64,000 bases of DNA from Gammaproteobacteria bacterium Gsub (GCA_002007405.1 JYIN01000011.1:62001-126000), one strand, 5' to 3'. Shown: positions 7,305 to 64,000, numbered from the stretch's first letter. Made by a program: numbers and translations. The notes: generated by a model not told the origin, from the sequence alone.

Positions 7305-8537
7305 TTACCCCTGCCTTGATTTGATTTTTTTGGCTAGATTCATCGCACTTTGCATACAAATATCCATATTATAATATTCCCATTCACCAAATCTACCAAC
7401 AGAATGCAAGTTGATGCTGTTTAAATAATCCTTCACCGCTTTGCTTGAATGCTGATGATTTTCATCATAAACCACATACGCATGCTCGGACACATTGTAG
7501 TCAAGCGGCTTTAATAGGTAGTCAAATTTCCTGCCAGCCTGAACCATCTCAGCATACGAATGAACACCGATACTTTCGGTAATGGTTCTTGTTTTGACAG
7601 GCTTAAAAAAATTGCCAATATGAATATGACGATGAAAAATGGTATCAGTACTGGGGTAATAACGCCAAGTATCGTCTACTGGCTTAGTATCCCATAGCAT
7701 ATTACTGACTTTATTGAATTTTAATTTTTTGGCGTGTTGAAGAATATTTTGGGGCGTATCTGCCAATAAAAAAGGGGTTAAATTCAACGGCATGGTGCTA
7801 ATCACCATATCATATTCATCACTGTGGTTAATAGTCCAACTGGCTTTATTTTTCTTAATAGCTGAGACTGTAAAATTTTTAACCACATTTAGCCCCAGCC
7901 CCAGTGCTTCAATAAAAGTATTTTGATTGTTTGAATTAGGATAATAAAAAGTACTGTGGGGCATTGTGTCTTTATTATCATCAATCAAGGCGGTAAAAAA
8001 ATCCGCTTTATTGGGAATCGGTAATTTATCCTGTACCCAAACATAATCCATATCTTCAGGGTTCATCCCCCATATTTTACTGTTGTAGGGGATAAAATAT
8101 TCCTTTGCTAGGGTAGCGCCAAATTTTTGCATAAACCAATCTTTGAGATTACGCACTGGTTTTTCTTTAGATGAGAGAAAATCTTGGGTCATATTAAAGG
8201 CAAGTAACTTGTCAAACTGGGCAATTTCTTTAATCGCGAACTCTATCGGGTAAGAGATGAGGTGGTCGTTAAAAAAAATCTTAGCATTTCTTTGCACATG
8301 ATGCCATTGGTCTTTGGGTAAAATTTCATTAAAAATAAAATCCATAATGGTTTTATTTTTAGAGTTGAGACAATGTCCGCCAACGATATGATAAGCACAA
8401 TCATTGATATTTCTGGTACGCGCAATGCCACCCACCTCAGTCTCTTTTTCTAATAAAGTTACCTCAAAATCATCCTTTAATAGCCGACCTAAAGTCAGCC
8501 CAGTAACGCCAGCACCAATAATTGCAATTTTCTGCAT
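7305..8537 (-). CDS. FAD-dependent oxidoreductase, UDP-galactopyranose mutase/protoporphyrinogen-oxidase-like
   Basis: The 410-residue protein opens with a dinucleotide-binding motif (IAIIGAGVTGLTLGRLL, residues 4-20) followed by LLEKETEVGGIART, the layout of flavin amine-oxidase-like enzymes and UDP-galactopyranose mutase. The middle holds YHIVGGHCLNS, which parallels the active-site glycine/histidine region of the mutases. It ends a leftward operon of sugar-nucleotide genes, 4 bp after cysQ, so a role in making an unusual sugar precursor or modifying a surface polysaccharide is likely. The sequence is not close enough for me to call it a true Glf. Confidence 0.7.
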   Translation of the reverse strand: MQKIAIIGAGVTGLTLGRLLKDDFEVTLLEKETEVGGIARTRNINDCAYHIVGGHCLNSKNKTIMDFIFNEILPKDQWHHVQRNAKIFFNDHLISYPIEFAIKEIAQFDKLLAFNMTQDFLSSKEKPVRNLKDWFMQKFGATLAKEYFIPYNSKIWGMNPEDMDYVWVQDKLPIPNKADFFTALIDDNKDTMPHSTFYYPNSNNQNTFIEALGLGLNVVKNFTVSAIKKNKASWTINHSDEYDMVISTMPLNLTPFLLADTPQNILQHAKKLKFNKVSNMLWDTKPVDDTWRYYPSTDTIFHRHIHIGNFFKPVKTRTITESIGVHSYAEMVQAGRKFDYLLKPLDYNVSEHAYVVYDENHQHSSKAVKDYLNSINLHSVGRFGEWEYYNMDICMQSAMNLAKKIKSRQG

Positions 8538-49309: not shown

Positions 49310-51751
49310 TTATTCAGCAAGAATTGTTAATAAATCAGTCATTTCAAAATTTAATAAAAATGCAGAGTAGTGGTTGTTAAAGATGTCTTGTAGATAATCC
49401 TGTAAGTCAGTATCTACTTTATCGTCTCTTTGAATTTTATACTTCCTATGCTTGCTAATCATATATAAAAATAGTGTGTGAAAATAGACAGTAGAAAGAT
49501 AACGTTTTTTTGCGGCTGATATTCCATTTTCATTTTTAAGTTTACTTAAAAATTTTTTTAATACGCCACTGTCCATGTTAATGTAGATGCTTTCTAATTG
49601 GTCTCCGTTAACAAATGGATACATAACAGTCTTTGTATCAAAATTAATACCAACACTATCTAAACTACTCCAAGTTTTCCCCTCAAACCCTTCTGTTAAC
49701 TCTTTTTGAACTTGAATTAATTGTGGCAACCCTAAATTTTCTTGATTTTCTTTCTTTGGCTTTTTGTCTTGCTTATTTTTGTCAGTTATTTTTACTAGAA
49801 AGACTTGCTCTATATTGCCATTAGGAGAAGTCAATGTAGCTTTAATTTTTATTGAATCGCCGACATTTAAATGTTTTTTGGCTTTTGTATGGATTCTAAT
49901 AATTCCACTACTAGGACTGGATTTAGATACTGATATAACTCCATCTATTTTTCCAGGACTGACACCATTGCCACCACCACTGCTAGTGTTGTTTTTATAA
50001 TCTAGCAAAGCAATTTGTAGTTCTCCTGGCTCATCTATTCTATCAAAATAGCTATCTTCTACATCAGTATTAAATGTAATAATCTTTTCGTTTCCCATAG
50101 GTAGTTGGACCATAGGAATAGCATTTTCTTCTTGTTTAGTGTTTATCTTAAAACTGGTAGGAAACCTTTTAGGATTAAATGGAGCAACTTCAGTTTTTTT
50201 CTTAGGCTTAGTAAATTCTTTTTTACTGTTGGTCTTATTGTTAGTGACACTGTCTAGATTGAATGTTTGTTTTATTAGCTGAGTTAATTCTGGATTATTT
50301 AGGGGCAAATTTTTGCTAATTTCTTTAATAAGATTATTTGAGTCATCGCTAGAGGGAGTTATTTTAGATTTAAACTCTTTACTAATTTCTTTTAGTTGAC
50401 TTTTATTTAAAATTTCAACAATTTTTTTTCTTAATAGCTGAGTTTCTTCGCTAGTTTTCATTCTATCTCTAGATGCCATGAATAACTCACTTCTAAAATT
50501 CTGTTCTAAATTAGAGCAATCTATGTGAAGTAATAAATGTTTCTTTAAAAATGATTCTTTTAAAGCAACAGATATAAATTCAGATGTAAAACTGCCATGA
50601 ACTTGACCGTTTAATGAGAATAAAACGGACATATTATTTTTAAAGAACTCTCTTTTTATTGTTTCAATACTTTCTTTACTGTTTTTTTTATCAATCAAAA
50701 AATTAAAAACATAGCAATTTATTTTAAATTTTCCTATTTCACTGTCTTCGTATTGTTCGGAAAATTGCTTGTATATATATTTTTCGTTATTATCTAGTCT
50801 TCTCTTAAGTCCATATAAATATCTCTCTAAATTTCTATCATCTGGATAACGCTGGGCATTATCAATTGTATAAATAGGCAATGCAGGTTCAAATAAATAC
50901 TCGTTTATACTTCTATTTAAATCTCTTGATATAACAGATCGGCTACCAGTTGGTAACGAATAAGAATATAGTTTGATAACAGTACCTGTAGTAAACTCCC
51001 TACCCTTTAATCCTAAATCTATAGATTCAATTGGAAAACTTGCTATTTCGTTATTAATTCTTACATATTCATACCATGTGCTCTTAACTTTTTCATCTTC
51101 TTTTAACGGATGTTTTCTAACTAAAGTCCATCCAAAATCGCCTGTATTATCATATTTTTTTGATCCTATTAGCTGATAGCGTTTTTTACCGCAGAATACT
51201 ATAGCGCCAGATCCTCCCATATTGTATTTTCCCTGAACGAAAGGAATTTCATTTTTGTTACCTTTAAGCAGCGATAACAAAGTGTTTTCAAAATCTTTAG
51301 GATGCTGACCCTCCCCATTATCATAAATAATTAATGAGGTATTCTTTTTTGGTCCGTGAGCTAATATTTGAATTTCCTCAGCCTGTAAAGAAATATTTTT
51401 AGACAGATCCCAATTTTTATTATCGGGAAAAAATTGGTCAACAGCTTTAGAAATAGACTGCGGAGCTTGTTCAGATTTTGGATCTATGTTTTTAAGATAA
51501 CAGCACTTCATTAAAACAGCATCAATTGAATTAGTTATTTTTTCTACTAATGCTGCAATTGGATTAGCTTGCTGATTTTCTACGACTCCGTAGTTACTTT
51601 GGTTATTGCCATATGGGTGCCAATTCTCTTGAGAGAAGATCTTAGGATATTGATTGATAATCTTATCGATACTATCTTCCGTTTCAGCTTGATATAATTC
51701 CTTAAATATTTTCTTCACTTCTGCTGCCTTTTTTTTGATTACATTTAGCAC
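49310..51751 (-). CDS. GHKL-type (Hsp90/MORC-like) ATPase at the end of an Ssp-like operon
   Basis: The 813-residue protein has a GHKL ATP-binding fold: N-box E70-x3-N74 in VEKITNSIDAVLM, G1 box D144-N-G-E-G148 in IIYDNGEGQHP and G2 GKYNMGGSG (174-182). A middle domain follows to about 450, then a charged linker (KEFTKPKKKTEVAP) and a C-terminal part with a beta-rich segment (NTSSGGGNGVSPGKIDGVIS). No nuclease motif is recognised. The apparent start is GTG 51751, 50 bp inside the end of the SspE-like gene; GTG 51718 is possible. Translational coupling to the effector suggests a shared defence role. I know of no such protein as a standard Ssp component. Confidence 0.8.
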   Translation of the reverse strand: MLNVIKKKAAEVKKIFKELYQAETEDSIDKIINQYPKIFSQENWHPYGNNQSNYGVVENQQANPIAALVEKITNSIDAVLMKCCYLKNIDPKSEQAPQSISKAVDQFFPDNKNWDLSKNISLQAEEIQILAHGPKKNTSLIIYDNGEGQHPKDFENTLLSLLKGNKNEIPFVQGKYNMGGSGAIVFCGKKRYQLIGSKKYDNTGDFGWTLVRKHPLKEDEKVKSTWYEYVRINNEIASFPIESIDLGLKGREFTTGTVIKLYSYSLPTGSRSVISRDLNRSINEYLFEPALPIYTIDNAQRYPDDRNLERYLYGLKRRLDNNEKYIYKQFSEQYEDSEIGKFKINCYVFNFLIDKKNSKESIETIKREFFKNNMSVLFSLNGQVHGSFTSEFISVALKESFLKKHLLLHIDCSNLEQNFRSELFMASRDRMKTSEETQLLRKKIVEILNKSQLKEISKEFKSKITPSSDDSNNLIKEISKNLPLNNPELTQLIKQTFNLDSVTNNKTNSKKEFTKPKKKTEVAPFNPKRFPTSFKINTKQEENAIPMVQLPMGNEKIITFNTDVEDSYFDRIDEPGELQIALLDYKNNTSSGGGNGVSPGKIDGVISVSKSSPSSGIIRIHTKAKKHLNVGDSIKIKATLTSPNGNIEQVFLVKITDKNKQDKKPKKENQENLGLPQLIQVQKELTEGFEGKTWSSLDSVGINFDTKTVMYPFVNGDQLESIYINMDSGVLKKFLSKLKNENGISAAKKRYLSTVYFHTLFLYMISKHRKYKIQRDDKVDTDLQDYLQDIFNNHYSAFLLNFEMTDLLTILAE

Positions 51752-52955
51752 ATAGTGTTTGTCCGTTTTCTATAGTTGTTTTACCTCCTTTTGAATGAGG
51801 CTCAATATGATCGGCATGCATTTCTGTAAATTCAATCTTACATCCACAAGTTACGCATTGTCCGTTGTTTTTTCTCCAGATAACAACTTTTTGATTTTGA
51901 TTAAAAAATCTATTATTGTCTTTAGGTACTAAATCAATTATTTCTTTATAAATTTTTCTAGTATATACTTGGTTTCTAGTTTCTATATTTTTTTTAACTC
52001 CTCCACTTTTATTAAACGCATCAATATATTCATATAAGTCTTTCGACCAAGAATCTTTTTTAATTTCTATTAACTCAATTGGGTCATCTACTTCTCTTCT
52101 TTCTTTTTCAAACCCTACATAAAAAGAGCCAAACTCTGTATTTCTATTATTGATAACAAACATTTCTACCAATAAAGAAATTAACAAATAAAAATCAACA
52201 AACCCCCATTTAATATTCATTTCTGGAGTTTTGCCTTCGAATGAACTTTGAATATAATTTAGAATCCTTTTTATTTTTTTAGCATCACTGGAGTTTTTGT
52301 TAAAATTTTTATTATTTTCATACATTTTTTTTAAATTATCAGCCTTAACATCGGTAGGGCCTTTTGCTAATTCTAAGCATACAATATGGGCTATCCAGTC
52401 AGCATATAAAAATCTTTTATTATCTTTGGGTATAATTTGAAACACTTTATGAGATGCTAACTCAGATATAAAATCTCTCATATTTCCTATCATTGCATTT
52501 CTTTTTTCTGGAGGGTTTAAAGTTACACCCTCCTGTAGCCTAAGAAATAAATCACGTACCTCCTCTTGTGAGGCATCTTTAATAATAATTATTGATAACT
52601 CGTAAAGCTCAAATGTATCTAAAATATCATTCATTAAATCACTATATTTTTGTCCAGAAACATCTCCAATTGGAAGATCTTTTGAATAGTTTCCCAATGG
52701 ATACTCATTATTAAAGAACTCCCAAATAGCTCTTAATCTTTGTTGCCCGTCAATAACTTCATGTTCAAAATTTTCCTCCTCGCTTTCTTTTAAATACACC
52801 TTAGGTATATCATAACCTCTCAAAATAGTATCCATTAGTAGTTGTTTTTTTGATTCTGACCACACCTCTGTTCTTTGATATTGAGGTTGTGGATTAATCT
52901 TATTTTTTCTCCTATTAATAGTGCTTAAATTCCATGATTTTGTTATTGTTTCCAT
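51702..52955 (-). CDS. SspE-like DUF262 protein with C-terminal HNH nuclease
   Basis: The 417-residue protein carries a DUF262 (GmrS/SspE-type) domain: NPQPQYQRTEVWS and the nucleotide-site DGQQR motif at 69-73 (EVIDGQQRLRAIWEF), then NPPEKRNAMIGNMRDFI. The last ~60 residues are an HNH nuclease with CVTC (367-370), HADHIEPH (380-387) and CAKC (402-405). Characterised SspE senses phosphorothioate DNA through DUF262 and uses a DUF1524 HNH to nick unmodified phage DNA; here the nuclease is a compact zinc-type HNH. The gene starts 8 bp after the SspD-like gene. A GmrSD-like type IV enzyme is an alternative, but the context favours Ssp. Confidence 0.8.
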   Translation of the reverse strand: METITKSWNLSTINRRKNKINPQPQYQRTEVWSESKKQLLMDTILRGYDIPKVYLKESEEENFEHEVIDGQQRLRAIWEFFNNEYPLGNYSKDLPIGDVSGQKYSDLMNDILDTFELYELSIIIIKDASQEEVRDLFLRLQEGVTLNPPEKRNAMIGNMRDFISELASHKVFQIIPKDNKRFLYADWIAHIVCLELAKGPTDVKADNLKKMYENNKNFNKNSSDAKKIKRILNYIQSSFEGKTPEMNIKWGFVDFYLLISLLVEMFVINNRNTEFGSFYVGFEKERREVDDPIELIEIKKDSWSKDLYEYIDAFNKSGGVKKNIETRNQVYTRKIYKEIIDLVPKDNNRFFNQNQKVVIWRKNNGQCVTCGCKIEFTEMHADHIEPHSKGGKTTIENGQTLCAKCNQKKGSRSEENI

Positions 52956-52963
52956 ATTTTTTT

Positions 52964-53752
52964 TTATAAACTACAAATTGTGCAAGCTTGATTTTCATCA
53001 TCTTGCCCATCTTCTATTAAAATATCTTGCCAGGATCTAGCATCCTTTGTGCTTTGTTGTTTGCGTATTTTACTGTTACTTAAAATTTTTTCTTTATGTT
53101 CAAGTAACTGCTCTAAAGTCATGCCTTGGATCCAAGTGTAGCCTTCACCTCCTTCTCTTTTTTCAATCTCAATGGCTTGAGCAAATTTCTCAGGATGATG
53201 TTTTGATAGTCCTATCCACTCTTCCTTACGCTGAAAAAAACAAAAAAAACACCCTGAACGACTACGCCACTTGTAATATTCGGGAATACCAACAGTACTT
53301 TTTAATATATTGAAAATATCTTTTCTTATTAAACCATCTTCAATAAAAGGATATTTTGGGGTAATATTGTCCTTGAGACTTAAGTAACCGTCTCTAAACT
53401 CATCTGCTCTAATGCCAATGTAAGATATACATCTATCACTACCAACAAACTCTTCAAATGGTTTAAGTTTCATTTCTCTTGTACACCAGCGTTGTTTTGG
53501 CGAGGGAAGCATTCCATTATGCATTTTTAAATGATGAAAAAAATCTTTCTTGCTGCCAAGTCTTTTAATTGGTTTTTCTAAATAAATCTCCAGTTTATCT
53601 AAAAAAGTATAAACCTCTGGAAGCTCAACTCCAGTATCGCAAAAAAAATACTCTAAATTTAAATTTTTATTCTGTTGCTTTAGGTAAATAGCTAAGGCAG
53701 CACTATCTTTTCCTCCGGATAAACCTAATACATGTCTTACTTTTTTAGACAT
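52964..53752 (-). CDS. sspD: SspD/DndC-like PP-loop ATP pyrophosphatase (PAPS-reductase family)
   Basis: The 262-residue protein has the PP-loop SGGKDS at 12-17 in HVLGLSGGKDSAAL, FFCDTGVELPEVY, a second segment QRWCTREMKLKPFEEF and YIGIRADEFRDGY. Cysteines in GCFFCFFQRKEEW (about 165-170) and a terminal CTIC pair could hold an Fe-S cluster or relay sulfur, as in DndC. In the phosphorothioation pathway this protein activates the DNA phosphate with ATP for sulfur insertion. Its gene overlaps the ATPase gene by 8 bp. It is not an assimilatory PAPS reductase: no cys reductase genes are near, and the partners are defence genes. Confidence 0.82.
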   Translation of the reverse strand: MSKKVRHVLGLSGGKDSAALAIYLKQQNKNLNLEYFFCDTGVELPEVYTFLDKLEIYLEKPIKRLGSKKDFFHHLKMHNGMLPSPKQRWCTREMKLKPFEEFVGSDRCISYIGIRADEFRDGYLSLKDNITPKYPFIEDGLIRKDIFNILKSTVGIPEYYKWRSRSGCFFCFFQRKEEWIGLSKHHPEKFAQAIEIEKREGGEGYTWIQGMTLEQLLEHKEKILSNSKIRKQQSTKDARSWQDILIEDGQDDENQACTICSL

Positions 53753-56700
53753 TTTTTATCCTTGTTGATAAAAGTGGTGTTTTATTTTTTTTAGATAAGT
53801 CCTCTAATAACGAACTTATAACCCTCATTTGACTTTTTTCTGACAATTTTTGTATATTAACTTTAGATTCTTGCTCCTCAAATGTAAGCTCCCCCTTAGT
53901 GTGATATTGGTGGACTTGATATAAATTTACAACGATCCTTGAGTATTCTGACAATTTTTGACTAACAAAAATAACATCGTTATCAGTCCAATTTTTACTA
54001 GTTTTTCCGATTATATTGGTGAATATTCTTTCAAAATACTCATCTAAATCTCCATATTCATAATTTGCACTTTTAATAAAATTAGTCACCTCCTCATCAA
54101 TAGTATAGTTTTCGAGTTTGGCACAACATTGGGAAAGGCGCATTCTTAGCTGTTTTTTTTCTTCAGTATCAAATGCGTTGTGAAGTATATTGGTTTGCTG
54201 TTCAAGCATTTTAGGGTAAGCGTTTTTAATTTCTTGTAACGCTTCCTTTAAAGTCTTACCAAAAGATTTCAGGTTTTTGCTATTTGGAGTGCAAATTTTT
54301 GGAAGTTTTTTGAATAACAAATCTTGAGGGTTTTTAGGGTATTTAAAAGCATTTATAATATCTTGTGATGTGCCTGATATATTTTGTGTTTGAGAAGTAT
54401 AATCTGGAACGTCTCTAAAGAAAACAGCCATAGCTTTGAATAAATCTTGTATAGCTGATACTTTTTTGCCTCCTAATAAACTTTCTTCGTATTCTTGTAT
54501 TAAGTTTTGAGTAACTTTTCCTATTTTAAATTGCTGAAAGTTAAAAGTTTCAGGGCGTTTTAAAAACCTCTCTAAATGCTCAGGAGTAAAATATGGAACA
54601 TAAATCCTATCCTCATAGACGGCAATCTCATTTTTTTTGTACAGGTAAAAACTTATGTAAAAAAATGCTAACACCGGTTTTTTTATTCCATAAGGATTGG
54701 AGGTTAGAATAGCGTCTAATTCAGAGAGATTTTTTGGTTGTTGTAGCGAATTGAAAAAAACTTCTATGATTCGCCAAACCTTAAGAAATTTTTCATCAGT
54801 GGGAGGTTGTATTTGCCACTTATTATTCATACTACTATGCATTCCACTATCTTTAAAAACAGATAAATACATACTTTTTTCAGCAGGAAACCCTGTAATT
54901 CCTAAATCTTCTATATTATTTTTTTGTAACAATGCTAGTAGTAGTTTTTTTCTTCCAGACATTGCTTGACTAGAAGGATTGTCTCTATTGATAAGTTCAT
55001 TCTTTATGATCGGTGCACTATTGAAGGCATATTCCAAAACTTTTGAAAGTAAAGATTGCAGTTCTCTTTTCTTTTTAATGCTTCTTAATCCATTCCAGTG
55101 CCATAAACATTCACTAGGATTTTCTATAATTTGTTTGAATAGATTGCTTTCTTGCTGTCTTGCATTTATCAAATAGGTTTTAAACTCTCTTTGAATGACC
55201 GGGTCTTGTTGGATCACTGCTTCTTTACTATATATATTTTCCAAAGCTATTCTTTCTTTGCTAATTTTTTTAATATCGGCACTATTGTTTAAAAAAACAC
55301 AAATGTCTTGACCAGAAAAATAATTAATTAAATTATCTTTAAATGTGATTTTATCCTGCTTATTATCACTCAAGCAAAATATAACTCTGGGTTTGTCATT
55401 TTGTGCTTTTGTATTTTTGTACTCTGATACATTGATAAAAATTGGCTCAAAATAAAATAAACTATGTTTTTCAATTGAATAGCGTTTAGCGACAAAAGGG
55501 AAGAACACCGACATTTTAGTTATTTCTTCCGCAATATTTATTGTAGTAAGTTGAGCAATTTCTTTTGATAAAGATTGCATTAAATCAAAATCGCTACCTT
55601 GCCATATTCTGTATTCACTACTGAATTTACGATAAGTGACAATTGATTTACTCATCAATGAGTTAATACTGTCTTCAAATCTTGAAGTACACAATTTAAG
55701 TACATCCTCAGACGCTCTAGTGTTTCCTGAGATATTAAATAATCCAATGGTTTTTAATAGATTTACCTCTATATAAGATTCATCAGTAATTCGCTCTAGT
55801 GCAATTATTACTTCAGAATAAATTCTTTGAGTCTGAAGGTCGTTTGTAAGAATTTGTCCATTAATAAAATAATCATATATGTCTGCAGGCATAATAAATT
55901 TACCAAATTCTAAAATCTCCATTTTCTTTGTTAGTCCAAAAGGGTTATTGCTGCTTAAATACCCAAATAAACTTCTTTCATTTTGAGCTATTTTTTGACA
56001 TAATTTTGGCAATAATAATGATGTTACTGGATGCAATGGATAGCATTTAGCAAGAAGCTCAGTAAGTTTTGTTGAGTTTAAAGATGTTGGCAAAAAGTCA
56101 CTATTTTTTAATTTATTTATTATAGATTTAGTTTTATTCTTAATAATTTGTAATTTTGTTGCTGGTAGTTTTTGTTCAAAAAACTGAGACATAACATGCA
56201 AAGATTGAACAGTGGTTTCTATGAAAGGTACAGTTTCGTATCTGCCCTGTATTTTTGTCCATTCATTTTTAAGTTTAGGACTTAAATTTACACCATATTG
56301 ATCAAATGCCTGGTGCAGTAATACGAATAGTAATATACGACTTTTATCTGTTGTGTATGCTATTTCTGCTAACAGTTGTAGTAAAAAGATATCACTACTT
56401 TCATGGCGAGCAGCATATTCCAAGAAATTACCTAATTCATCAATAATAATAAGTAATCCTTTGCCGCCAGATTGTTTAATAGTTTTCTGGATGTTATTGA
56501 TAATCGGAATTATGCTTGAAGTGTTTATTTCCTTGTACTTTAACAAGGAATCAATATCTAGATAATCTTTTTTATTGTTGATAGAATATTTTGCATAGTA
56601 ACTACTAACGCTATTTTTTAATGCTTTTAAAAAGGCCACAATTAAACTTTCAGGGTGACCAGTTAATAAAACTTCACAGTAACCTAATGATTTTTTTATG

Positions 56701-57029
56701 TGGTTATTAATAGTATGCCTCAGTTCTGGGTTAATTTCTTTTAATTTATTTAATGCTAGGTTATTTTTTAAACTATTTGGGTTTGTTAATAAATTAGAAA
56801 GATATAAAGCAAACGATGATTTTCCTGATCCATAAGGACCAATAAGTGACCATGCTTTATTACTATTTTCATGAGAGTTGCAAATATTGGTGATATTCAC
56901 TATATTCTGTAGTGCACTAGAAGTTAATATATAAGATTCCAGAATATCAACAGAGGCTTTGTCTCTATCCAGATTAACCGATTTTGATAGATTTGTTTTT
57001 ATGCTAATAAATTGACTAGTCTTTTTCAT
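53745..57029 (-). CDS. sspC: SspC-like large P-loop ATPase
   Basis: The 1094-residue protein has Walker A GPYGSGKSS at 64-72 and Walker B GLLIIIDELGNF from 191, with about 900 further residues of helical regions and no recognised nuclease. Architecture recalls the large NTPases of BREX (BrxC) and of Ssp phosphorothioation. Its place between a DUF4007 gene (14-bp overlap) and a PP-loop gene (8-bp overlap) makes SspC the best call. It is unusually long for a DNA-modification ATPase, so a fused C-terminal domain of unknown function may be present. Confidence 0.75.
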   Translation of the reverse strand: MKKTSQFISIKTNLSKSVNLDRDKASVDILESYILTSSALQNIVNITNICNSHENSNKAWSLIGPYGSGKSSFALYLSNLLTNPNSLKNNLALNKLKEINPELRHTINNHIKKSLGYCEVLLTGHPESLIVAFLKALKNSVSSYYAKYSINNKKDYLDIDSLLKYKEINTSSIIPIINNIQKTIKQSGGKGLLIIIDELGNFLEYAARHESSDIFLLQLLAEIAYTTDKSRILLFVLLHQAFDQYGVNLSPKLKNEWTKIQGRYETVPFIETTVQSLHVMSQFFEQKLPATKLQIIKNKTKSIINKLKNSDFLPTSLNSTKLTELLAKCYPLHPVTSLLLPKLCQKIAQNERSLFGYLSSNNPFGLTKKMEILEFGKFIMPADIYDYFINGQILTNDLQTQRIYSEVIIALERITDESYIEVNLLKTIGLFNISGNTRASEDVLKLCTSRFEDSINSLMSKSIVTYRKFSSEYRIWQGSDFDLMQSLSKEIAQLTTINIAEEITKMSVFFPFVAKRYSIEKHSLFYFEPIFINVSEYKNTKAQNDKPRVIFCLSDNKQDKITFKDNLINYFSGQDICVFLNNSADIKKISKERIALENIYSKEAVIQQDPVIQREFKTYLINARQQESNLFKQIIENPSECLWHWNGLRSIKKKRELQSLLSKVLEYAFNSAPIIKNELINRDNPSSQAMSGRKKLLLALLQKNNIEDLGITGFPAEKSMYLSVFKDSGMHSSMNNKWQIQPPTDEKFLKVWRIIEVFFNSLQQPKNLSELDAILTSNPYGIKKPVLAFFYISFYLYKKNEIAVYEDRIYVPYFTPEHLERFLKRPETFNFQQFKIGKVTQNLIQEYEESLLGGKKVSAIQDLFKAMAVFFRDVPDYTSQTQNISGTSQDIINAFKYPKNPQDLLFKKLPKICTPNSKNLKSFGKTLKEALQEIKNAYPKMLEQQTNILHNAFDTEEKKQLRMRLSQCCAKLENYTIDEEVTNFIKSANYEYGDLDEYFERIFTNIIGKTSKNWTDNDVIFVSQKLSEYSRIVVNLYQVHQYHTKGELTFEEQESKVNIQKLSEKSQMRVISSLLEDLSKKNKTPLLSTRIKNV

Positions 57030-57900
57030 AGTATTTTCTTAAATATTTTAGACCGTCATTGGTTTTTGATTTATATAGTTGAAATATTCCAGCATCTTCT
57101 ATTAATGAATATTCATTAGGATATTTATTTGCTAAGTTCTCTAAATAAGTTGTTAATGAATCTTCTGTAATTTTTAATATAGCCCCTAATGATAATTTAT
57201 CATCGTACATTAAATCTTTTACAGGGACTATTGATTTATTGCTAAATATTGTGTTAATAGCATAAGCAATAATTTCTATTGGTATATCTTTTTTAGATGA
57301 AAAAGAAAAATGATATTTATCATCAAAATAATCTAGCAGACCTAATAGTGATAATGGAGATTCAAGCATATCTTCTATTTGTGTTTTTTTTGACTTATGA
57401 GGCGCATACATTCTTAAGATAACTTGAATATCCATTTTTAATGTTTTTTCAGAAATTCTCCAATTATTTTTTAGTGCATAGTCATAAAAAGCGTTTCCAG
57501 CCTCTTCTGCAGTAAATTCATTCTTATGAAAATGATTGAATAACCAATATATTGAAGTGGCTAATTTTTTATTTTTTGCTAGCTCAATATGTAATAACCA
57601 TAGGCTTGCGTCATCTTCTAGATAGGGGTCAAAACCTGTGTGTTTATCAAATAAAACTAGTCCCAAGTTTGTAATTTTATTGTTACTTATAACATTAGTA
57701 GCTGCTAGCCAGTATCTTATGGATGAAACCATATTTTTACCCACACCCAAGTTAATAGTAGCATCATCAGATGTAAAGATATTAGATATGTTAGACTTGC
57801 CTTCAGATTCTTGAATAGCCATTATTCCCTTTGTTAACCAACTATATTTGAGTTGGAAAGAACCGTGACGCCCTATTGCATAATCATTATTCATGGTCAA
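57016..57900 (-). CDS. sspB: SspB-like DUF4007 protein
   Basis: The 294-residue protein is a clear DUF4007 member: GRHGSFQLKYSWLTKGI at the start, NLGVGKNMVSSIRYWL (51-66), FDPYLEDDASLWLLHIEL near 90-107 and YWLFNHFHKNEFTAEE. SspB of characterised systems is a DUF4007 single-strand nickase that opens DNA for sulfur insertion. ATG 57900 and ATG 57894 are both possible starts. It is the first gene of the operon; only about 50 bp separate it from the IS256-type element, so its native promoter may be gone. Confidence 0.82.
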   Translation of the reverse strand: MTMNNDYAIGRHGSFQLKYSWLTKGIMAIQESEGKSNISNIFTSDDATINLGVGKNMVSSIRYWLAATNVISNNKITNLGLVLFDKHTGFDPYLEDDASLWLLHIELAKNKKLATSIYWLFNHFHKNEFTAEEAGNAFYDYALKNNWRISEKTLKMDIQVILRMYAPHKSKKTQIEDMLESPLSLLGLLDYFDDKYHFSFSSKKDIPIEIIAYAINTIFSNKSIVPVKDLMYDDKLSLGAILKITEDSLTTYLENLANKYPNEYSLIEDAGIFQLYKSKTNDGLKYLRKYYEKD

Positions 57901-57950
57901 GTAAACTTTTTTCTGTAAATTCCCATCTACTCCCTAAAACTTAAACATCG

Positions 57951-57988
57951 ATTATATTCATTTTTTATTATTATATTCATTTTTTATT
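57951..57988. repeat. 19-bp perfect tandem repeat at the IS left end
   Basis: The unit attatattcattttttatt occurs twice, at 57951-57969 and 57970-57988. The second copy contains the transposase stop codon. It may be a duplicated element end. Confidence 0.85.
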
Positions 57989-59151
57989 ATCTTCAACTGA
58001 CAAATAAGCCTTACCACTTTGCCACTCATCTGATACTTCTATCAATAAACTACTTATTAACCGCAAACAAGAAGTCTTGTTTGCAAAAATCTTAGCCACC
58101 TTAGTGCGTTGCTTAATGGTTTGATTAAGTCGCTCTAAAAGGTTGGTTGTTCTTAACCTCCTGCGATTAAACTCACACAAACCTAAATTAAATACCGTCC
58201 AACCCTCTGGAATATACTCTTCTGCCCATTGAGTTAAATCAGACATTGTTTTTTCATATTTAGCAATAAAAATATCCAATAAGCGTTTAGCCTCTACTTT
58301 ATCTGGTGCATTAAATATCATTCTAATCTCTTCAGCAATCTTTTCTTTCATTGACCGCCTAGTGATATATTTTTGTGCATTTTGTTGTAAGTGAAACTGA
58401 CAACGCTGCCAAGGGATAGATGGCATGACAGTCGTTTTGGCTGCTTTTAATCCTGCATGAGCATCCGAGGTAATTAGTTTTAACCCATGCAATCCTCTTT
58501 GTTGTAATGACTCTAAAAAATCACGCCAATAGACTTCTGCTTCAGACAGACTGACACTAACACCTAATATATCCCGTTTCCCTTGGCTATCAATGCCAAT
58601 AGCAATCAAGACAGCACAATCTCTTACTATACCATCTACTCTAACTTTCTCATATCGTGCATCTATCATTAAGTAATCTATTTGTCCAATGGGTTTGTTA
58701 CGCCAAGCCTCTAATCCTTCATCTAAGGATTGACTGGCATTAGAAACCATTTGAGAAGAAACTTCAAAAAGCCACACATTTGTTCCACGATACGCTTAAC
58801 CTTACGAGTAGAAGTGCCTTGAATATACATCTCAACTAACGCAAGATTAAGTGCTCTTTCACTTCTTAATCCTCGTTCTAGGCAACTGGGGTAAAAGTCT
58901 GTCCTTCTAGTTTGAGGAACTTTTAAATCTAACGCACCAATACGGGTTTTTAATTGCTTAGACTTATAACCATTTGCGTAGTCAATTCTATTATTGCTTC
59001 TTGCATAGTGATCAACACCAATATGATGTTGTCTTTCTATTTTCATCGCTTCATTAAACAGCACTTCCATTACCTTTGGCATTGCTTCTGTGCCATAGTG
59101 CATAATCATCTCATAAACTTCATTAAATGCGTTATCATTATTGTTGTTCAT
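57977..59151 (-). pseudogene. IS256-family transposase split by a frameshift
   Basis: The N-terminal part starts at ATG 59151 (MNNNNDNAFNEVYEM) and runs through IGALDLKVPQTRRTDFYPSC and STRKVKRIVEQMCGF. The C-terminal part continues one base back from a run of five T (about 58768-58772 on the plus strand as A5) with EVSSQMVSNASQSLDEG and holds the DDE core: YLMIDARYEKVRVDG, LITSDAHAGLKAA, and the Glu in LGLCEFNRRRLRTTNLLERLN. A -1 shift at the homopolymer restores the family sequence. Either a mutation or programmed slippage could explain it. Confidence 0.85.
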
Positions 59152-59212
59152 CACTATCTCCATATTAAAAAAATACATCATAGATGGTGATGAACATCGC
59201 CCAAGCCTATTT

Positions 59213-59368
59213 TTAAGTTCTCTCATGAAGTCGCCACTTTTGATTTTTCTCAAACTTAGACGGCTTCTTGTTTTCATATTTGGCTTTATCTTTTGGTTTA
59301 GATAGTAGAACCTCTTTTAAGGCTTTTTCTAATTGAGTTAAGTTAGTGGTGTTATCAAATGTATCCAT
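59213..59368 (-). CDS. small charged hypothetical protein (51 residues)
   Basis: A short frame starting at ATG 59368 overlaps the end of the HNH frame by 14 bp and ends at TAA 59213. The product is lysine-rich (LEKALKEVLLSKPKDKAKYE, KKPSKFEKNQKWRLHERT) and has no recognised domain. The overlapping start suggests translational coupling with the HNH gene and real expression. It lies just outside the likely right end of the IS element. Function is unknown. Confidence 0.5.
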   Translation of the reverse strand: MDTFDNTTNLTQLEKALKEVLLSKPKDKAKYENKKPSKFEKNQKWRLHERT

Positions 59369-59737
59369 TTTCACTCATCCACTCAATGATTCTGTTTCGG
59401 TCTTCGTTGTTTAGTCTATTGATTGCGGATTTTGCTCTATAAAAATCTTTATTTGAATCAATAAAGCTAGATTCTTTTAAGGCTACACCTCTTTTTAATT
59501 CTCCATTGGCTATTTTGCTTAGGCAATCATTATCTTTAGTGTTTAGCTGTAGTATTCCTTTATCTGTTCCTTTTGATCTGGAAGGATGATATGTAATCTT
59601 ATTGCCAAATTCTGGTGATTTAGCTTACCTTGTTCTAACTCACAACTGCACCTTTGGCATTTACCTTCGGCATCGGTAAAAATAATTTGTTTTTGTTTTT
59701 CATTGTCATAACAATACTTTAACATGTTTTTATACAT
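59355..59737 (-). pseudogene. HNH-type nuclease gene broken by a frameshift
   Basis: The first part begins at ATG 59737 (MYKNMLKYCYDNEKQKQ), with a zinc pair in GKCQRCSCELEQGKLNHQN, and stops early at 59543. The continuing frame, open from 59624 to TGA 59355, reads YHPSRSKGTDKGILQLNTKD, then NDCLSKIANGELKRG and an end IIEWMSENGYI. Joined near 59590, they give the HNH order C-x2-C, H-x-P-x-SKG-TD, C. The gene begins 18 bp after the NurA stop, so it belongs to the HerA/NurA operon. A single-base change or an assembly error would account for the break. Confidence 0.7.
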
Positions 59738-59755
59738 GCTCAAGTTGTCATGACC

Positions 59756-61117
59756 CTATTTCTTTTTTATCTCTCTAGCAATTTCCTCAAAAATCTTTCT
59801 CCCTAAATTAAGTGGTATTGCTGCTTCTGAGTGTGCTAATACAAGTGGTGTTATGGAATGATTGTAACGACTAGAAGTTAGGTCATCTAGTAAATTGATT
59901 AAATCATTCAATCTTGGATATTGATTTATATTTGCCGTTAGGGTATTTGCATCATCGCTAGATAAAAAGGCAATGTTAATAACTAAACGGTAATTGTTTT
60001 TAGTTTTATAGAAAAATTTTCTGCCAAAATAAGTTTCTTTGCCATAAGGTTTAGCACTATCTGAAAAGATGATATTTTGCTTAATGTATGCATCATTTAA
60101 CAATAAGCCTGTTTGTGGTTTAAACTTACCTTGAATACCTGTATTCTCAGTATCTAGTGCTTCAAAATGGTTACAAAAAGCCCCTGACTTTTCAATGCTA
60201 AATATTAGCAAATCAGGATGATTTTTTTGTTTTTGCACAATGTTAATGCGTTCTATTTCCTTTATGATGCTTTTATGTAGCCATGACCATGTGCTAAAAC
60301 AAGCTAATGGTCCATCTAAAACAAAGACCGTTTTGCTTAACAACTCTAGCCAACCTTTTTGCTCAAACGATCTTAGAATATGTATTAACCAAAGAGCTTC
60401 TAATAGACCCATTACTTGACCATATAGACCGCCATTTTCACCCATATCATTAAATAACTCGTGTAGTCTGAGTGCGTCAGTAGAATACAATGTTTCACCA
60501 CTTTGGGTGCACTGATATTTACCTTTTTGATACATCATATGAGACACTACACCATCAATAGGACTTTGTGCTGGTTTTGAAAATCCAGACTTTAGTTTTA
60601 AGTCTAGCAAATATTCATAAGTATCTAATAGTGTTTCACCATCATCAAACACCTTTGTTGCTGATAATTCATCAAATAATGCTTTACGCATTGATGCCTT
60701 GCCTGATTTTTCTCCTTGAATGATGATATTACAACCTGGAATAATGGTATCAATCGTTGAGGCTTTTTCAGTGTCTCTAAACTCTTTAGGATCAATAAAG
60801 TTTTGTTTGGATAATTGATTAACTTCGTTATGTAAGATAAGTCCAGCTGCAATGGCAATGTAGCCAATTTCTGCCTCTGGAAAACCATTGTTTATTTTTA
60901 CTTGATGATAACTGCCGTCTATGGCGATAATATAATTTGGTGTAAAGTCGCTTGGCAATAATTCTTTATTAAATATATATTGTTGGTATTTGTCAAAAAA
61001 ATCTATCCCACTGACTGTTTGATTAACCAATAACTTTTCTTGTAAAGATTGAACTTTTTTACTTTCTAAGATACGCCTTAGTGGACTATAACTTGCATAT
61101 TCCCCATCAAACCCCAT
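59756..61117 (-). CDS. nurA: NurA-type 5'-3' nuclease
   Basis: The 453-residue protein has the NurA active-site start YIIAIDGSYHQVKIN (Asp67), followed by EIGYIAIAAGLI, a second acidic strand in TVFVLDGPLACFSTW and the late PLVLAHSEAAIPLNLG segment with its histidine. NurA nucleases work with the HerA pump to resect or degrade duplex DNA. The start at ATG 61117 is 4 bp after the HerA gene. It is longer than archaeal NurA proteins (about 300-350), mainly through an N-terminal extension and a central insertion. The pairing with a methyltransferase suggests defence rather than repair. Confidence 0.82.
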   Translation of the reverse strand: MGFDGEYASYSPLRRILESKKVQSLQEKLLVNQTVSGIDFFDKYQQYIFNKELLPSDFTPNYIIAIDGSYHQVKINNGFPEAEIGYIAIAAGLILHNEVNQLSKQNFIDPKEFRDTEKASTIDTIIPGCNIIIQGEKSGKASMRKALFDELSATKVFDDGETLLDTYEYLLDLKLKSGFSKPAQSPIDGVVSHMMYQKGKYQCTQSGETLYSTDALRLHELFNDMGENGGLYGQVMGLLEALWLIHILRSFEQKGWLELLSKTVFVLDGPLACFSTWSWLHKSIIKEIERINIVQKQKNHPDLLIFSIEKSGAFCNHFEALDTENTGIQGKFKPQTGLLLNDAYIKQNIIFSDSAKPYGKETYFGRKFFYKTKNNYRLVINIAFLSSDDANTLTANINQYPRLNDLINLLDDLTSSRYNHSITPLVLAHSEAAIPLNLGRKIFEEIAREIKKK

Positions 61118-61121
61118 AATG

Positions 61122-63236
61122 CTAACTAATGTTAAATTTACTAATTTGAACGGGTATTACAAATGGATTACTGAGGGTTTTTACTCTTAAAAACCCTTTA
61201 TCTTGCACCCGTCTAATTGAAGATTCAAAATCAGCAAAGTCATAATACTTACATAATTCTTTTGTTTCATCGGTATTGTTTAAGTGAGCGATAAACCAAT
61301 TGGCCGTATTACGCAAAATATTTTTTTGAATACTACTTACTTCTTGTGTGGCATACACCATGCCAATACGGTATTTAGCACCTTCTTTGGCTGTTCTAAC
61401 CCAAATATCTAATAAATCTAAATCGGTACCTGCAGGTAATATGTTATGTGCTTCTTCAATATAAATCAATATTTCTGGTATGTTTGTATCGCTATTAATA
61501 AATTTCTTTTGCTGACTAGAAAATATTTTAGTCATTACTCTATTAGCAGACGATTTATTAAGTTGTGGGTTACCGCTAGATTGATCAATAATCACTAATT
61601 TACCTAAACACAGGTCATCATAAATATCTTTAGCGTAGTCATTGCTAACGGACTCACTGTGTTGAACCTTAAGCCCTGATATTTTACGAATACCATTTGG
61701 GTATTGAAATATACCAATCAGTTTTTTCAAATCTTCATCAGCCCATCTATCACCTGATGCGTTTGGTTTATCCATATACCAACTCTCAAAATTTTGGTAA
61801 TTACTTTTGGGGTCTCTGATAAATTTATCTAGTATCTCAAAAACACGAGCTACTTTATCTAGTGAGAGTGTTTCTTCTGCTAAATACTTTTCTGCCTCTT
61901 TATAGTCAATATCATTATTGTTGGCTTTTTCACTATCTTGGTTTAAATATTCTTTAAGTTTTGCGTTAAATAAGCCTTTAATATTAGCTTGTGATTTATT
62001 AACATTAAACCCCGCCTTTTTTAAAATGGAGCGGTAAGCTAAGACTTGTCTATTGTATCTAGTAGTTGCACTTCTATCATCTGCATGTGGCTCTTCTAAT
62101 AAAACTTGAGTAAAGTTTTTTACATAGATTGATGTTTGGTCTTCTAGCAAAGCACTATCAATGATTTGCTTACCAATTTGTAAATTATCTTTTTCATAGA
62201 AATTTAGAAGCATCAATTTTCTATCCTGGTCATTTGGATGTGAAGTAATGCCATAGGTTACTATCTCATCATTTTTATTAGTATTTGTATATAATTTCCA
62301 AACATTTTTAAGTGCATTGGGATTATTATGATTGTCACTATCTTGGGTATTTTCATTAGCATATTCACCATTAGGATCAAAGATTAATTGTCCAATCCTA
62401 AGTGATCTATCACTTTCTTTTTTCGGATACCTTAACTCATAAACTGACTTGGCAATAATTTTTGTCGTATTTGACTTACCCGTTCGTGTCATGCCAAATA
62501 AAGCACTTTTTTGTGAGAGTAAATCAGCTGGATAAATATTAACAGGTATATCATCAATATTTTGAAAGTTACGATTAGTTGAAGCATAACGAATACAGCC
62601 AAGGTTGACACTTTCAGATGTCTGATATTGCTCTTTATGCTCTGCTAGATTATTTGGATCAATATAATTAACAATTTGTGCAAGTGCACCGCCTGTTGGT
62701 TTATAAATTTTTAAACCTCTATTGGGATAAAAATTAGATAAATCACTACCAAACTTTAAACCTAGTTTATCTTGATTGCCCTTATCTAAATAAAATGTAC
62801 CGATAATACGACATTTAATACCAGCATAACCTAAATAAACCCGTGTTCTAGTATCCATGGCATTTTCGTCCCAGTGTTTATCAATCTCACCACTAACTCT
62901 TTGAGCCGTTTCTGTGCGTATTCTCTCAGCTTCTGTGTGGTTGTGTAGTGGTGCTGAGTCTAATACTCTTAGTAGGATAAAAGATGAATCTTCTTCTTTA
63001 AAATCTATGGCATCTGAGTTAGGGTTGACTCTTGTTGCAATTAAAAAACTTAATGCTGGAATGCCGCCAACCTTTTGTCGTTCATGATCATGAATTTGTA
63101 GTATTGCTGCTTCATAATCAATAGAAATTGTTTCACCAATATATTGATTGGTTTGTATTAATGACTTAAATATTTCAATGGATTGCTTATTATTTTGATT
63201 TGACAACTCATCTTGTAGCGTGTATTCAATAGACAT
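61122..63236 (-). CDS. herA: HerA-type hexameric DNA translocase
   Basis: The 704-residue ATPase has an N-terminal HAS-barrel-like region, Walker A GMTRTGKSN at 248-256 in ALFGMTRTGKSNTTKII, an insert of about 300 residues, Walker B ILIYIEEAHN at 589-598, and the sensor and arginine-finger region VYATQEVSSIQKNILRNTANWF. This is the HerA/FtsK superfamily. Being 4 bp from nurA, it very likely forms the HerA-NurA motor-nuclease complex. It follows the methyltransferase gene by 25 bp, all in one leftward operon. Confidence 0.88.
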   Translation of the reverse strand: MSIEYTLQDELSNQNNKQSIEIFKSLIQTNQYIGETISIDYEAAILQIHDHERQKVGGIPALSFLIATRVNPNSDAIDFKEEDSSFILLRVLDSAPLHNHTEAERIRTETAQRVSGEIDKHWDENAMDTRTRVYLGYAGIKCRIIGTFYLDKGNQDKLGLKFGSDLSNFYPNRGLKIYKPTGGALAQIVNYIDPNNLAEHKEQYQTSESVNLGCIRYASTNRNFQNIDDIPVNIYPADLLSQKSALFGMTRTGKSNTTKIIAKSVYELRYPKKESDRSLRIGQLIFDPNGEYANENTQDSDNHNNPNALKNVWKLYTNTNKNDEIVTYGITSHPNDQDRKLMLLNFYEKDNLQIGKQIIDSALLEDQTSIYVKNFTQVLLEEPHADDRSATTRYNRQVLAYRSILKKAGFNVNKSQANIKGLFNAKLKEYLNQDSEKANNNDIDYKEAEKYLAEETLSLDKVARVFEILDKFIRDPKSNYQNFESWYMDKPNASGDRWADEDLKKLIGIFQYPNGIRKISGLKVQHSESVSNDYAKDIYDDLCLGKLVIIDQSSGNPQLNKSSANRVMTKIFSSQQKKFINSDTNIPEILIYIEEAHNILPAGTDLDLLDIWVRTAKEGAKYRIGMVYATQEVSSIQKNILRNTANWFIAHLNNTDETKELCKYYDFADFESSIRRVQDKGFLRVKTLSNPFVIPVQISKFNIS

Positions 63237-63261
63237 AATTTATCGCTTATCGCATTAGAAA

Positions 63262-64000
63262 TTAATTTGTCATAATAATATCAGTTTCCCCTGTATTTTT
63301 TGGCTTATTTTTAAAAATACGCGTTTGTCCTTTACCTTGTGATATGGGTTTGGTATAAGTTGATAGTCTATGATAAGGGAAGTGTTTTTTTAAAATAGAT
63401 AATGTTACCTCTTTGGTAAATTTCCTAACATCAGTCCTAATGTATACCACACTTTTTTCTGTCATTAAAGCAGCACTATGAGAAAAAATACTATCTAATA
63501 AATTATAATAGTGTTCCCGATCAGTAAATCCTCCATGATTTTTACTTTGTTGCTGCACTCTTTTATCTTTTCCACCTAATAACCAAAGCCTTAGCCATTG
63601 ATCCGCATGATAATTAGTTACCGAGTAATAAGGTGGGGAAGTAAACAGTAATGAAAATTTTTTATTATTCTGTTTTAAAACTTGGCTACTCTCTCCTAAT
63701 ACGACAGTTGATTGTGTTTTATGACTTGGAATACCTTTTTGATAACGCCAGTTAATCTTTTTGAGTAATAGTTCTAATGGGTTAATTTCTGGTGGTTTTG
63801 CTAAATTATTTTTTTGCCACCAATTAAGCGAATAATACTCACCCATTGCCTTAGTTTTATGCATTTTATTAGATAGAGATGTTCCAATATTGCCGTGCAA
63901 GCTATCTAATATAAGCGCCATTAATGTTACATCAGTTTGATTATTTCTCCAGTCAAGGTGTTTTCTTGTTGCCAATAATAAGCCTAGTACATCAGAACAA
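63262..64000 (-). CDS. DNA amino-methyltransferase, C-terminal part (gene continues past window edge)
   Basis: The frame is open to the right edge (CSDVLGLLLATRKHLDW precedes the first internal TTG), so the gene start lies outside. The visible ~246 residues contain the catalytic motif IV TSPPYY in LLFTSPPYYSVTNYHADQWL, conserved GTSLSNKMHKTKAMGEYYSL and INWRYQKGIPSHKTQST upstream of it, and YIRTDVRKFTKEV after. The SAM motif (FxGxG) is not seen and should be in the missing N-terminal part. It is an N4-cytosine or N6-adenine methyltransferase, presumably protecting host DNA from the linked HerA-NurA nuclease. Confidence 0.85.
   Translation of the reverse strand, partial: CSDVLGLLLATRKHLDWRNNQTDVTLMALILDSLHGNIGTSLSNKMHKTKAMGEYYSLNWWQKNNLAKPPEINPLELLLKKINWRYQKGIPSHKTQSTVVLGESSQVLKQNNKKFSLLFTSPPYYSVTNYHADQWLRLWLLGGKDKRVQQQSKNHGGFTDREHYYNLLDSIFSHSAALMTEKSVVYIRTDVRKFTKEVTLSILKKHFPYHRLSTYTKPISQGKGQTRIFKNKPKNTGETDIIMTN

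Follow-up and report, generated by a model that had tools for sequence, protein, structure and literature searches.

A conserved methyltransferase-HerA-NurA operon in a gammaproteobacterial defence island suggests a mobile restriction-modification-like system

The ring-shaped DNA pump HerA and the nuclease NurA have long been regarded as a repair complex. In the TdpAB(C) system of extreme thermophiles, reportedly described by An et al. in 2025 (PDB entries 8wet, 8wfd and 8y1k), an antiphage pump-nuclease pair, TdpAB, is said to degrade phage DNA that lacks phosphorothioation, and the modification is reported to keep self DNA from degradation. In Thermococcus kodakarensis, a complex of six HerA and two NurA subunits uses ATP to degrade double-stranded DNA on both strands, and the authors suggest a role in antiviral defence (PMC12977600). 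The integrative element ICEth1 of Thermus thermophilus carries in one operon the type IIG enzyme Tth111II, NurA (TTC1878), the HerA-family protein TdtA and an N4/N6 methylase (TTC1880). This operon is reported as DNA-donation machinery, as knockouts of TdtA and NurA abolished or strongly reduced DNA donation, for which Tth111II was also needed (PMC5365140). A kat mutant of the methylase is among the listed strains (PMC5365140), which weakens the case for a strictly protective methylase in ICEth1.

We analysed a window of 64,000 nucleotides from Gammaproteobacteria bacterium Gsub (G000:C2:62001-126000), on a contig that ends at 126575. The features considered here, in window coordinates, are:

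51702..57900, minus strand: Ssp phosphorothioation defence operon (SspB, SspC, SspD, GmrSD/DUF262-HNH), a separate system that provides defence context
about 57896..59277, minus strand: degenerate IS256/Mutator-family element (PF00872), between the operon and Ssp
59213..59368, minus strand: small ORF of 51 aa, no match
59543..59743, minus strand: ORF of 66 aa with one CxxC, originally predicted as HNH, apparently a short frameshifted remnant
59756..61117, minus strand: NurA-family nuclease of 453 aa (PF09376, E=9e-18)
61122..63236, minus strand: HerA-family DNA translocase of 704 aa (PF01935, DUF87, E=1e-11)
63262..64000 and continuing beyond the window end, minus strand: DNA methyltransferase of 363 aa, N6_N4_Mtase type (PF01555, 1.4e-13)

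The methyltransferase, HerA and NurA genes form a single leftward operon in this order, with gaps of 25 bp between the methyltransferase and HerA and 4 bp between HerA and NurA. The original prediction had placed five genes in the operon; these three stand, but the HNH gene and a small coupled protein fall away. The 66-aa ORF and the open frame after it look like a single frameshifted remnant, no Pfam match was found for them or for the 51-aa ORF even at E<=1, and neither ORF recurs among the 80 related loci described below; both are outside the conserved system. This bears on the mechanism originally proposed, in which HNH nicks unmodified DNA and HerA-NurA degrades it afterwards. A short CxxC-bearing ORF does directly follow NurA in the window, but it is a frameshifted remnant missing from the relatives and the conserved unit lacks HNH, so that we give this largely refuted design next to no probability and rule out HNH as the effector.

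Extending the sequence beyond 64 kb, as had been proposed, completed the methyltransferase gene to its ATG (window-equivalent position 64353; whole gene L002:7262-8353), but the contig runs on for only about 575 bp beyond the window and stops within a partial second copy of the IS element (L002:8455-8575). The first copy, downstream of the operon, has its transposase in two ORFs (57977-59277) broken by a frameshift. Since the operon is flanked by two IS copies, its upstream context is unreadable. A zinc-ribbon fragment lies upstream of the methyltransferase (L002, about 8360-8455) and is suggested to be a truncated gene. Further copies or fragments of the IS256/Mutator-type element were found at the end of contig G000:C4 and at G000:C3:70714-70802; the assembly probably breaks at this element, because two contigs end in copies or fragments of it.

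The neighbouring Ssp operon, noted in the original prediction as Ssp-like, is well supported (SspB, 8e-76; SspC, E=0; SspD, 2.9e-103) and also encodes a GmrSD/DUF262 protein with an HNH domain. SspB, SspC and SspD are adjacent to the methyltransferase-HerA-NurA operon rather than members of it, with the IS element in between. A gene for an 813-aa protein (window 49310-51751) overlaps the end of the GmrSD-HNH gene of Ssp and is possibly a further member of that operon; the protein's HSP90-like ATPase domain (HATPase_c_3) is weak, scoring slightly below the Pfam cut-off.

In the methyltransferase, the catalytic TSPPY motif comes after motif I (DPFAGRG), an alpha-like order, and both DPF.G and TSPPY are invariant across 71 methyltransferase sequences. 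HerA carries a Walker A motif (G248-MTRTGKSN) and a Walker B motif (Y592-IEEAH) and is 67-68% identical to its closest relatives, and NurA keeps D67-G-S, D268-GPL and H317. The three proteins agree with nearly all columns conserved at 95% or more in their families, catalytic residues included, and the genes therefore look intact. The locus thus combines two features of restriction-modification systems, a methyltransferase with intact catalytic motifs and an adjacent nuclease, NurA, with conserved catalytic residues, which would act as its cognate partner. No hypervariable target-recognition region stands out in the methyltransferase; this would be unusual in a restriction-modification system and counts against that reading.

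Among solved structures, the nearest PDB chain to the window HerA is TdpA (phmmer, 5.6e-13; profile, 1.5e-37), which outranks SIR2-HerA, DUF4297-HerA and Sulfolobus HerA. A sequence search of NurA against PDB gave no match, but its AlphaFold2 model (pLDDT 86.8) has TdpB (8wfd_G) as top Foldseek match (E=6.5e-7), at 12% identity and therefore a likeness of fold only, followed by the NurA of Deinococcus radiodurans, T. kodakarensis and Sulfolobus. For the methyltransferase, the fold search hit generic Rossmann methyltransferases and E. coli Dam and nothing else, so that specificity is not readable from it. The locus thus resembles Tdp in coupling a HerA-type pump and a NurA-fold nuclease to a DNA modification enzyme, with the same inferred logic, but the modification is phosphorothioation by TdpC in Tdp and would be made by a SAM methyltransferase here. 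The operon encodes neither TdpC nor a PAPS reductase; its partner gene is the PF01555 methyltransferase, and SspD belongs to the Ssp system. The statement in the original prediction that known HerA defence pairs use SIR2 or DUF4297 was accordingly incomplete, as the closest solved relatives of HerA and NurA are TdpA and TdpB. SIR2-HerA and DUF4297-HerA likewise combine a HerA-family ATPase with an effector, but the effector differs and these systems have no methyltransferase. The window HerA scores 32 bits against the NCBIfam HerA_antiphage model (cut-off 800), and the genes beside it are NurA and the methyltransferase rather than a SIR2 or DUF4297 effector.

A HerA alignment used to scan about 85,000 species genomes retrieved 412 relatives, and the 80 best were taken with their flanks. 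Among these 80, all 72 loci with room for it carry a methyltransferase and all 74 a NurA gene, on the same strand, although the 72/72 figure is conditional on this subfamily, the loci being the best matches to the window HerA. In the same best 80 of 412, the HerA-NurA gap is at most 20 bp in 73 of 78 loci, the NurA-methyltransferase gap is at most 17 bp in all 73 loci measured (median -4 bp), and the hosts span about 24 named phyla, archaea included. The usual order, that of the main clade, is HerA-NurA-methyltransferase; the methyltransferase comes first in the window and on a Deferribacter megaplasmid. Pairwise distances of the three proteins are correlated at 0.86-0.89 over 71 loci. Phyla are intermixed in the HerA tree, with close cross-phylum copies such as those from Poribacteria (L066) and Gammaproteobacteria (L067). 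HerA is broken while the methyltransferase is intact in three loci and the reverse occurs in none, which fits restriction-modification although, with so few cases, it carries no weight.

No fourth gene is conserved, the most widely shared being present in 9 of 89 loci. Next to the trio, an HTH gene recurs most often (9 loci), followed by a PIN_8 gene (6 loci) and assorted defence genes. The PIN_8-family gene lies immediately upstream of HerA (about 25 bp or less, or overlapping) in L055, L058, L063, L064, L087 and L094, two of these six having been checked with Pfam, and is possibly an accessory effector or regulator.

As these loci were picked by similarity to the window HerA, the association was also checked from the NurA and methyltransferase sides. 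A phylum-wide search with NurA profile A2 retrieved only the window's own genome, and the class samples were therefore searched with protein queries. Among 369 genomes of the class, the NurA-side search found four carriers (the window, G096, G055 and G022), each with a methyltransferase, which is of the window type in G096 and of the Dam/D12 type (PF02086) in G055 and G022. When 274 genomes were searched from the methyltransferase side, three strong relatives other than the window itself came up (G096, G125 and G014), each lying beside HerA and either NurA or a gene resembling it (the one in G125 has no Pfam match and was assigned by position and likeness); weaker matches were orphans. The original prediction had allowed that the methyltransferase might be a chance neighbour and had called for a search for conserved methyltransferase-herA-nurA-HNH sets. 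Its presence in every locus with room, and the same trio in the samples taken from either side, speak against chance, and the trio is a real, conserved association; HNH is no part of it among the 80 loci.

The distribution is patchy. Beyond the four carriers in 369 genomes of the class, the window's own genome is the sole carrier among the family members searched, and carriers include plasmids and a Vibrio prophage. This matters for the view that the trio is an accessory double-strand-break repair module with a regulatory methyltransferase. Archaeal and Deinococcus HerA-NurA, built from the same two protein families, does act on DNA ends (PMC9960219, PMC12977600), but these repair complexes are linked to Mre11-Rad50 or stand alone, with no methyltransferase. 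The other NurA genes in the carrier genomes, repair-type paralogues that coexist with the trio, fit that pattern, lying in archaeal Mre11-Rad50-NurA-HerA operons or alone and always without a methyltransferase. The trio in the window shows neither Mre11-Rad50 linkage nor a stable housekeeping place, and instead sits in a defence island between IS copies. We consider a repair module very unlikely, and the expectation that HerA-NurA here is not a repair operon is borne out by the paralogues.

The surroundings of the relatives point to defence as well. At E<=1e-8, 120 proteins encoded by flanking genes matched 159 PADLOC families (AbiE, type II restriction enzyme and methyltransferase, and PDC families), compared with 14 families for 99 control proteins from carrier genomes, these figures counting families and not proteins. 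In PADLOC 2023 and NCBIfam, the trio proteins themselves have no defence label beyond generic HerA and methyltransferase matches. Likewise, we found no description of the trio as a defence system in the literature searched, most subscription papers being outside its reach.

The original prediction had named prior publication of a system with these genes as grounds for rejecting it, and in ICEth1 the core set is indeed in print, with DNA donation as its reported role (PMC5365140). The gene set thus has a precedent. Compared by gene content, both loci encode NurA, a HerA/FtsK ATPase and a PF01555 methylase in a single tight operon, which in ICEth1 is part of a mobile element, although the order is NurA-HerA-methyltransferase in ICEth1 and differs from that of both the main clade and the window. 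ICEth1 has in addition its own type IIG enzyme and integrase, and an experimental tie to DNA donation. The present family might similarly serve a transjugation-like donation of DNA by mobile elements, in which HerA would export DNA, NurA would trim it and the methylase would mark the element or modulate transfer. The tight spacing in ICEth1 (gaps of 2 and -4 bp), the donation defects of its TdtA and NurA knockouts (PMC5365140) and the identical gene order of locus L197 are in keeping with this. ICEth1, however, comes with a type IIG nuclease, an integrase and a recipient that is competent, whereas a Tth111II-family enzyme is absent from the window operon and is no common fourth gene in the relatives, and no other fourth gene is conserved. 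The family also occurs in defence islands and on a phage, and spans hosts not known for transjugation. We regard a donation role as unlikely.

The modification enzyme paired with HerA-NurA can be exchanged or missing. The order D12 methyltransferase-HerA-NurA was found on viral contigs (L097-L099) and in gammaproteobacterial loci (L013 and L014). In the Vibrio phage PQ189353 (L007:1309-3502), HerA is split into two overlapping genes beside NurA, and the Vibrio prophage locus has a convergent Dam-type (D12) methyltransferase and an integrase alongside, in the lysogeny region; it is possibly a superinfection defence. HerA-NurA is therefore kept while the methyltransferase class changes, which argues that the link is functional. 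On cyanobacterial plasmids of Nostoc and Calothrix (L009 and L011), HerA-NurA occurs without a methyltransferase and with an XRE-type regulator ahead of it, which counts against a restriction-modification-like reading; on the Nostoc plasmid, AbiTii is the next gene, and the association with AbiTii and XRE is possibly a further front end.

A second HerA-NurA pair is encoded elsewhere in the same genome, in a DruA-NurA-HerA operon between metG and nrdA (L140:5991-10148, G000:C5; DruA, PF14236, 4.9e-59). The same arrangement is present in all four other gammaproteobacterial genomes with that NurA and may be a second HerA-NurA immune module, of which our literature search found no description.

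These variants without a methyltransferase, beside AbiTii and DruA, would suit a modification-dependent (type IV-like) or abortive system, in which the methyltransferase marks invaders or DNA ends and HerA-NurA attacks the marked DNA or kills the cell, and the direction of control is not readable from sequence. A methyltransferase that is always present and co-inherited, however, would trigger self-attack by acting on host DNA, and the Tdp precedent is reportedly the opposite. We judge such a system quite unlikely.

We consider it fairly probable that the trio works like a restriction-modification system, compact and mobile: methylated DNA would count as self, DNA lacking the mark would be degraded by HerA-NurA, and HNH would have no part in it. 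The methyltransferase would mark host DNA; a HerA hexamer would thread double-stranded DNA into a NurA dimer, where both strands are cut, as shown in other organisms; methylation would somehow stop HerA-NurA either from loading onto self DNA or from degrading it; and incoming unmodified linear phage or plasmid DNA would be degraded. This is the simplest model because TdpA and TdpB are the nearest relatives, the T. kodakarensis complex degrades double-stranded DNA and TdpAB reportedly acts on unmodified phage DNA. Like type II restriction-modification systems, the trio is small and mobile and joins a methyltransferase to a nuclease, but an ATP-driven HerA-NurA machine would take the place of the site-specific endonuclease. 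It is observed that the operon is conserved, that its catalytic residues are intact, that the three genes are inherited together, that the methyltransferase class can be exchanged and that the context is a defence island; we infer antiphage activity, the specificity for targets and the direction in which self/non-self control runs. A restriction-like role with a HerA-NurA engine, as originally predicted, is the best-supported reading, given the conservation of the trio, the PADLOC matches of its flanks and the repair paralogues without a methyltransferase. The general role was thus well guessed and the association is real, while the HNH step was wrong and the gene set has a precedent in ICEth1.

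More tentatively, HerA-NurA could be a DNA-shredding engine used generally in prokaryotic immunity, with varied front ends that mark self or sense (TSPPY methyltransferase, Dam-type methyltransferase, Tdp phosphorothioation, DruA and possibly AbiTii). The trio would then represent a restriction class, widespread and as yet without a name, in which the methyl mark is read by translocation in place of site-specific cleavage.

The recurrence of the tight trio in about 24 phyla suggests, from gene content and conservation, a mobile immune system that marks its own DNA and shreds unmarked DNA. If true, a restriction class carried by some two dozen phyla, by plasmids and by a phage would be added to those known, and HerA-NurA would have an immune role in which the DNA mark can be exchanged. 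Experiments could then address how methylation is read by a DNA pump that works with no site-specific endonuclease, and whether the transjugation operon of Thermus is a repurposed defence system.
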